Shown piece by piece: positions 3,911-4,733 of a stretch of 64,000 nucleotides of DNA. A program made the translations under genes and the position numbers. Below the pieces are notes generated by a model that was not told the DNA's origin, searched no databases, and was given only the letters and a program-made list of their open reading frames with translations. Source of the DNA: Akkermansiaceae bacterium (lineage in GTDB: Bacteria > Verrucomicrobiota > Verrucomicrobiia > Verrucomicrobiales > Akkermansiaceae); assembly GCA_015062005.1 (NCBI GenBank), contig SUVL01000012.1:1-64000 (forward strand), read 5' to 3'. Every line of letters starts with the position of its first letter. Position 1 is the stretch's first letter.

Positions 3911-4363
3911 AATACCAATGCTGACCGTGAAGAGTATACCAAATAGTATAGAATAAAATAAAGCACAAACAACAAAAATACCCATCTAGCATTATGTTTT
4001 GTGCCATGTCGGGTCGCTCTACGCCTCCCATTTTATATACCTTGATTATTTCAATCGAACAACGCTGCGTCTTATTCTTAACAGTTTACGACACAAATCG
4101 CCCACCACTGCATCCCCCAAAACGTCTACACCAACCGGGCAAAAACGGGTATTAGAAAAACCGGTTCAGCAACACTCTAAGAATGAGCCTTTTGAGGTTC
4201 GTTTGAATAAAGCAAGGTAGATGTATACTACCGCGTTTAGCGGAGGCGTGCAGAGGCGTTTGGGGTGTTTAAGCCTCCGGAATTGCATTTAACGGCCTGT
4301 TTTAGCCCCAACGGGGATGCAACAGGGCAGCGAGTAACACGCTAAGCCATAGGCGAAAATGAA

Positions 4364-4398
4364 ACAGGCGGCAGATTCACGAAAAATCTGCCGCCTGT
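4364..4398 (-). terminator. Intrinsic-terminator-like hairpin downstream (minus strand) of the tRNA-Ala-like element
   Basis: 14-bp perfect stem acaggcggcagatt / aatctgccgcctgt, followed on minus strand by TTTCATTTT. Confidence 0.6.
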
Positions 4399-4407
4399 CT
4401 GTAGAAG

Positions 4408-4584
4408 TGGAGCATAGGGAACTCGAATCCCTGACCTGACGGCCCCACTCGACCCCGGCCAGCCGGGGTACCGGCTCGGAGGAGTCCTCGCCTCTCGGGG
4501 CGCGGAAGCCCACTGGGCTTCCGCGTGTGCTCAACAACCGCTCTCGCCCTGCGGGCGCCCGGTGAACCGGGGAGCTCATGCACC
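4408..4584 (-). other. tRNA-Ala-like interrupted element (pseudo-tRNA or structured RNA)
   Basis: Three collinear blocks match tRNA-Ala at 4661-4733: 4572-4584 (11/13), 4535-4544 (10/10), 4408-4438 (31/31); GC-rich hairpin-forming inserts between them. Confidence 0.55.
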
Positions 4585-4622
4585 GCCCGCAACAGGTCAG
4601 GGGGTATGTCGCTCTTGTGCCA

Positions 4623-4659
4623 TAACAAAAAAAGGCACCATGAAGGTGCCTTTTTTGTT
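4623..4659. terminator. Bidirectional intrinsic terminator after tRNA-Ala
   Basis: taacaaaaaaaggcaccatgaaggtgccttttttgtta: hairpin with A-tract and T-tract. Confidence 0.85.
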
Positions 4660-4660
4660 A

Positions 4661-4733
4661 TGGAGCATAGGGAACTCGAATCCCTGACCTGTTGCGTGCG
4701 ATGCAACCGCTCTACCAACTGAGCTAATGCCCC
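4661..4733 (-). tRNA. tRNA-Ala (anticodon CGC), CCA not encoded
   Basis: Reverse complement GGGGCATTAGCTCAGTTGGTAGAGCGGTTGCATCGCACGCAACAGGTCAGGGATTCGAGTTCCCTATGCTCCA folds as a cloverleaf; loop ATCGCAC gives CGC; G3:U70 present. Confidence 0.95.

Follow-up and report, generated by a model that had tools for sequence, protein, structure and literature searches.

A tRNA-linked repeat family in Akkermansia with arms copied from the 3' ends of host tRNA genes

Organization of the locus behind tRNA-Ala(CGC)

The window, meaning the whole stretch of 64,000 nucleotides of Akkermansiaceae DNA analysed here, carries an intact gene for tRNA-Ala(CGC) on the minus strand (4661-4733). This gene is called by ARAGORN and by Rfam (63.6 bits), in agreement with the initial annotation, and the features described below follow it on the same strand. 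Directly behind the gene, an inverted-repeat search identified the first of two terminator-like hairpins, T1 (4620-4663). Its stem is partly made of A/T tracts, its palindrome extends into the last 3 nt of the tRNA, and it was not flagged by a consensus terminator scan. An inverted copy of tRNA positions 22-52 comes next (4572-4602 against 4682-4712; 31 nt, 84% complementary), as found by a repeat search. The existence of an inverted copy had been recognized earlier, but it had been confined to 4584-4602 and is longer than was thought. Similarly, the segment GGTGCATGAGCTC, previously taken for a copy of the 5' acceptor strand and D-arm, is better read as the distal end of this inverted copy.

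Two small hairpins read from the sequence lie between the inverted copy and the center of the unit. The first, CCCGG-TTCA-CCGGG (4558-4571), also occurs in other Ala-type copies and folds in prediction, and the second, CGCCC-GCA-GGGCG (4545-4557), has an equivalent in other Ala-type copies. They are followed by a short direct copy of a D-stem/anticodon-stem strand of the tRNA, GAGCGGTTG (4535-4543), recognized from the sequence and its sister copies, which is weak as a general feature of such units (score of 10.0 with the own tRNA versus 8.2 with other tRNAs). The center itself is a conserved multi-hairpin core (4440-4526), delimited by alignment and model search and scoring 73.9 bits with the covariance model R1 described below. 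Core stem 1 (4501-4525), detected by inverted-repeat search and by covariation, is a near-perfect palindrome with an RGT triloop, and the hairpin originally reported at this position is indeed present, with 11-12 bp.

At its end the unit repeats the final 31 nt of tRNA-Ala(CGC) in direct orientation (4408-4438; source, 4661-4691), and a repeat search showed this copy to be 100% identical. Perfect recurrence of a 31-nt tRNA end far exceeds the chance expectation in 64 kb. Folding predicts that CAGGTCAGGG of this direct copy pairs with the inverted copy and thereby closes the unit. Folded alone, the unit has a z-score of -2.2 as RNA and -3.7 as DNA. The core lies 134 nt from the tRNA, and the window holds a single copy, with no tandem repetition. 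All the sequence blocks listed in the initial annotation, including the identical 31 nt, are thus present in the window.

The second terminator-like hairpin, T2 (4364-4398), was identified from inverted repeats and from relatives, and its 14-bp stem (4364-4377 with 4385-4398) is as first described. However, T2 and its flank are homologous to the 3' flank of a different gene, tRNA-Ala(GGC), in the related genomes G007 (93%) and G023 (83%), which indicates that the unit of the window genome (G000) is joined to the flank of another tRNA. A similarity search found no second tRNA-Ala in G000. The junction of the 3' copy with the Ala(GGC) flank (4340-4438) may reflect recombination or an assembly join.

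Copies, hosts, and anatomy of the family

A DNA search of 59 relatives with the window unit showed that other Akkermansia also carry this unit after tRNA-Ala(CGC), at ~80% identity, including one tandem pair of Ala(CGC)-type units with a 248-nt period in G003. Searches restricted to the core retrieved diverged copies behind tRNA-Asp and tRNA-Pro, and searches from these led to copies at His, Pro-GGG, Cys, and Gly tRNAs and to a pair beside tmRNA. Twenty-two cores were aligned, and their consensus fold, in which 23 of 30 consensus pairs show changes on both sides, was converted into R1. This model finds ~110 copies, spread over 40 of 76 Akkermansia genomes, and has no hit in the 49 other genera among the 50 sampled from the order (387 genomes), most of the genomes searched being MAGs. 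In a species-level collection, the exact core pattern matches only Akkermansia/Akkermansiaceae or uncultured gut MAGs, which assigns the window to an Akkermansia genome. As far as tested, the family is restricted to Akkermansia. No such repeats were found in the open-access literature on Akkermansia or Verrucomicrobia, and the family is previously uncatalogued. Weak blast matches (77%) in complete Akkermansia genomes were judged by eye to be coding sequence and were set aside.

The initial annotation had considered that the feature might be a decayed tRNA copy invaded by palindromes, to be recognized by a lack of conservation and of compensatory change; the opposite was found, namely conservation with covariation. 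Truncated 3' arms, present in many copies, are what random tRNA duplication followed by decay under palindromic insertions would leave behind, whereas the recurrence of one covarying core behind nine tRNA types in 40 genomes makes such an origin hardly credible.

The nine host tRNAs are Ala, Asp, His, Pro-GGG, Pro-TGG, Cys, Gly, Met, and Leu, to which the copies beside tmRNA are added. Among 113 core copies read in their sequence context, 74 are first copies situated 81-160 nt behind a tRNA on the same strand (Pro-GGG, 21; Asp, 19; His, 12; Ala-CGC, 8; Met, 5; Gly, 4; Cys, 4; Leu, 1). For Pro-TGG the copy is found 296 nt after the tRNA, beyond an assembly gap, and the remaining ones are further tandem copies, copies at contig ends, or copies without a tRNA. 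Apart from those at tmRNA, none of the copies read lies equally close to a tRNA on the opposite strand. Tandem arrays of two to three copies occur at 16 loci, with spacings mostly of 197-274 nt and outliers of 170 nt at tmRNA and 310 nt in G073. The window genome holds eight copies: the one at tRNA-Ala, a tandem array of three and a single copy at two different tRNA-Asp genes, two at tRNA-His, and one at tRNA-Pro.

Whether alone or in tandem, units of ~200-270 bp share one order: tRNA, terminator-like hairpin, inverted copy of the 3' part of the tRNA, core, and direct copy of the tRNA end. The core is common to all hosts, and the arms match the host tRNA. For example, an inverted copy of the own tRNA is found between tRNA and core with a score of 16.9, compared with 9.7 for other tRNAs and 8.1 for shuffled sequence. 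In 72 of the 74 first copies the inverted arm scores higher with the tRNA of its locus than with other tRNAs, and the same holds for the direct arm in 62. The direct arm reproduces the 3' end of the own tRNA from the T-loop onward, spanning 17-19 nt in 35 of 41 units and 31 nt in the Ala type; a clear 3' copy is missing from 26 of 67 testable units. In eight units that were folded whole, the predicted structure is a closed multi-branched hairpin in which the tRNA-derived arms pair with each other (16-29 arm-arm pairs).

This anatomy bears on the proposal, made from the window alone, of an expanded tRNA-like RNA of ~180 nt with an acceptor stem and T-arm interrupted by hairpins. The order of the blocks on the minus strand of the window does resemble that of a tRNA. 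However, the tRNA and tmRNA models of ARAGORN and Rfam match only the real tRNA-Ala and leave the feature itself uncalled. The supposed 5' acceptor strand (GGTGCAT, 4584-4578) reads GGTGGAT, GATGGAT, or GGTGTAT in sister Ala copies, without compensation. Furthermore, a split T-arm with the core inside its T-loop is seen in Pro, His, Gly, Cys, and Leu hosts (in Ala, the core is at the anticodon arm), and these five have no copy of the 5' acceptor strand. A tRNA-like acceptor stem is therefore refuted as a conserved feature, and a tRNA-like RNA is very improbable. With the acceptor pairing lost in sister copies and no counterpart of the 5' acceptor strand in other hosts, the U:U that was said to replace the G3:U70 identity pair has no bearing. 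The third suggestion of the initial annotation, a tRNA-derived mobile hairpin element, came close, and its description is to be completed: the element recurs as a repeat family, with copies of the host tRNA 3' part, inverted on one side and direct on the other, around a conserved hairpin core. The observation is thus confirmed as real and its interpretation partly supported.

Several other elements were seen around the units. Ala(CGC) loci of related genomes that have no unit (L028-L034 and others) show a plain terminator-like hairpin of varied sequence after the tRNA and represent unoccupied sites. In L212 (2325-2886; contig C109 of G075), a group II intron, recognized by Rfam hits to D1-D4 and to domain V, ends directly ahead of a second Met-type unit, and this stretch contains no ORF of at least 250 aa. 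Another hairpin-rich repeat (AAAGCGCCCGACGGCC...) is inserted in some units of G003 and G083, behind the core in L108 and L110 and ahead of it in L119. Stretches of ~160-190 bp bounded by inverted repeats of the TACAGCATT/AATGCTG type come after several arrays and before a gene start (L053 1700-1890, L087 1865-2025, and L120 1640-1800). Lastly, at contig ends (L010 1880-2007 and L018 1660-1900), a repeated unit of ~125-130 bp, GGGTCAAGCCCAATTTTTGTGGAATTTG..., comes immediately after tRNA-linked units or tRNA-Ala(GGC).

Likeness to tRNA-linked repeats and other mobile repeats

Escherichia coli has 22 tRNA-linked repeats (TLRs) distributed over ten loci, and in all of them the final 18-19 bp are identical to the 3' end of the tRNA or 5S gene upstream (PMC8144298). 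TLRs were already known in 1978, and as of 2021 no function had been established for them (Egan and Landy, 1978; Rudd, 1999; both reviewed in PMC8144298). The Akkermansia units resemble those at tyrT (rtT/RttR) and argVYZQ in lying behind a tRNA gene, in occurring in tandem at some loci, in their 17-19-nt direct copy of the tRNA 3' end from the T-loop onward, and in their GC-rich multi-hairpin core. When the MG1655 loci tyrT, tyrV, argV, argZ, and argQ were re-read, direct copies of 18-19 nt were found. Ahead of the core, tyrT and tyrV have an inverted T-arm copy (score of 16 versus a shuffle maximum of 12). Such a copy is visible but below the shuffle maximum at argV (10 versus 13) and argQ (8 versus 12), and the aligned inverted hit at argZ lies elsewhere and not ahead of the core. 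These readings indicate that E. coli TLRs and Akkermansia units have an architecture in common. In contrast to E. coli TLRs, the Akkermansia units differ in core sequence and fold, begin with a terminator-like hairpin, copy 31 nt in the Ala type, and use more host tRNA types within one genus, with one set at tmRNA. Membership in the RtT sequence family was rejected, as neither model finds the other's family: Rfam RF00391 (RtT, the tyrT TLR) has no match above its gathering threshold in the window genome or in the Akkermansia loci searched, whereas it matches the E. coli control, and R1 finds none of the E. coli TLRs. That the units are TLR-type elements is nonetheless very probable.

The far end of the insert also carries a 3'-end identity block of the kind left by integrase-borne elements. 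As in tyrosine-integrase attachment sites, the block reaches from the T-loop or, in Ala, the anticodon stem to the tRNA end, and attB cores at the T-loop are known (PMC1762012). The units might accordingly be remnants or minimal satellites of tRNA-targeting integrative elements, with the direct copy as an attR produced by a tyrosine integrase acting at the T-loop or anticodon loop and supplied by a helper in trans. Tandem accretion would be consistent with such an origin, as would the tRNA-less copies in G024, G075 (L046), G083, and G018, in which homology starts at the last nucleotides of the tRNA. Conversely, the four annotated genes adjoining the window copy encode an ABC/MacB-HlyD system and an FMN reductase, and no integrase is among them; exact core patterns are absent from viral contigs; and integrase insertion leaves the inverted tRNA copy and the covarying core unexplained. 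An integrative origin is therefore unlikely.

Two 19-nt palindrome matches in viral contigs are at about chance level. Phage or plasmid origin was likewise set aside after similarity searches returned ordinary tRNA-Ala genes only. Integron attC sites were dismissed when R'/R'' boxes, sought by eye, gave no convincing pair. The units share with REP/BIME-type repeats the form of DNA palindromes kept by paired changes in many copies per genus, but, unlike these, they are bound to tRNA ends and derive their arms from the host tRNA.

Action as DNA or RNA and the spread of the units

Paired changes can preserve a palindrome in DNA as well as a fold in RNA, and the two may be told apart by wobble pairs. 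In core stems 1-3 the ratio of GU to AC is 16:13, whereas the acceptor and T stems of tRNAs from these genomes give 28:1 (Fisher p = 0.0004). The counts were deduplicated, yet they are not independent of phylogeny, and conserved G-U pairs recur in the tRNA control. The near-even core ratio implies little strand preference in pairing, as expected of palindromic DNA and not of an RNA fold. Substitutions in the inverted arm keep wobble pairing in 56 cases and break it in 39. The closing stem leans to GU (16:7), which argues against the DNA reading. The copied sequence often extends beyond the tRNA end to include part of the terminator, and an untemplated CCA is absent from the copies; both features indicate copying as DNA, and they rule out retro-copying of mature tRNA. 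The copies without a tRNA, whose homology starts at the tRNA 3' end, and the core that is flipped at tmRNA also speak for action at the DNA level. On balance, we consider the unit somewhat more plausible as a DNA-level palindromic repeat than as anything else.

RNA function is the main rival. Three E. coli TLRs in rrn operons (rrA/rrB/rrF) are made by T1 read-through and bind Hfq and CsrA, and the 3' end of RrB RNA lies 3 nt beyond the repeat (PMC8144298). These elements likewise sit between two terminators behind a stable-RNA gene whose 3' end they copy; they differ from the Akkermansia units in their 5S host and in that CsrA and Hfq binding is known there. The Akkermansia unit is probably transcribed solely by read-through. 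A TLR-type functional small RNA would arise when transcription reads through T1, and tRNA-processing nucleases would set its end at the tRNA-3'-like copy or at T2. It would act in trans, in the manner of E. coli RrA/B/F, which bind Hfq and CsrA, or as a buffer for the processing of tRNA 3' ends. The T1-unit-T2 layout, the strongly covarying multi-branched fold, and the GNRA/UUCG-like loops of some copies suit such an RNA, as does the fact that the units almost always face the same way relative to the tRNA, something that a transcription-coupled function would explain equally well and that also counts against the DNA reading. Set against a small RNA are the core stems without G-U preference, the absence of the family from 36 of 76 genomes of the genus, and the lack of a conserved single-stranded motif. 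Moreover, beside tmRNA in G019 the core is flipped relative to the gene. There, L085 (1499-1755) holds two tandem units with the core opposite in orientation to the tmRNA gene. We regard a small RNA as possible but not probable.

Movement between tRNAs appears to be rare, as the nearest core is that of the same tRNA in another species for 55 of 74 cores. The Cys and Gly cores of G003, on the other hand, are 95% alike and at most 83% like the core of the same tRNA elsewhere. From such patterns we infer how the units may spread. A unit acting at the DNA level as a palindromic repeat would give rise to tandem copies by recombination between its direct tRNA-end repeats, and the core would occasionally pass to another tRNA gene. 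After transfer, strand switching or conversion at the palindromic end of the new host tRNA, where replication forks would stall, would recast the arms on that tRNA's sequence. Neither a transposase nor an integrase or relaxase could be linked to the units, the annotated genes being the four that adjoin the window copy, and no target-site duplication was demonstrated. We assign a probability of about 55% to the reading as a whole, that is, a TLR-type element of an Akkermansia family with DNA-level action and with recombination and arm rewriting as its mechanism.

Tentatively, TLRs could be a general class of DNA palindromes tied to the 3' ends of stable-RNA genes, occurring in at least two phyla with unrelated cores on one plan (direct 3' end, hairpin, inverted 3' part, multi-hairpin core, and direct 3' end) and spreading by arm rewriting from each new host, either without an enzyme of their own or with an unknown one. 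A second, independent TLR-type family in another phylum provides comparative data on the class, with many copies, tRNA types, and alignable species. Their comparison separates fixed parts, such as the core fold, the length of the copied tRNA end, and the inverted arm, from parts that follow the host tRNA, and the family yields a testable prediction on action as DNA or RNA. For annotation, units that duplicate tRNA 3' ends can mislead the calling of att sites and tRNA pseudogenes. In the window genome, the units are associated with a joined or rearranged tRNA locus.
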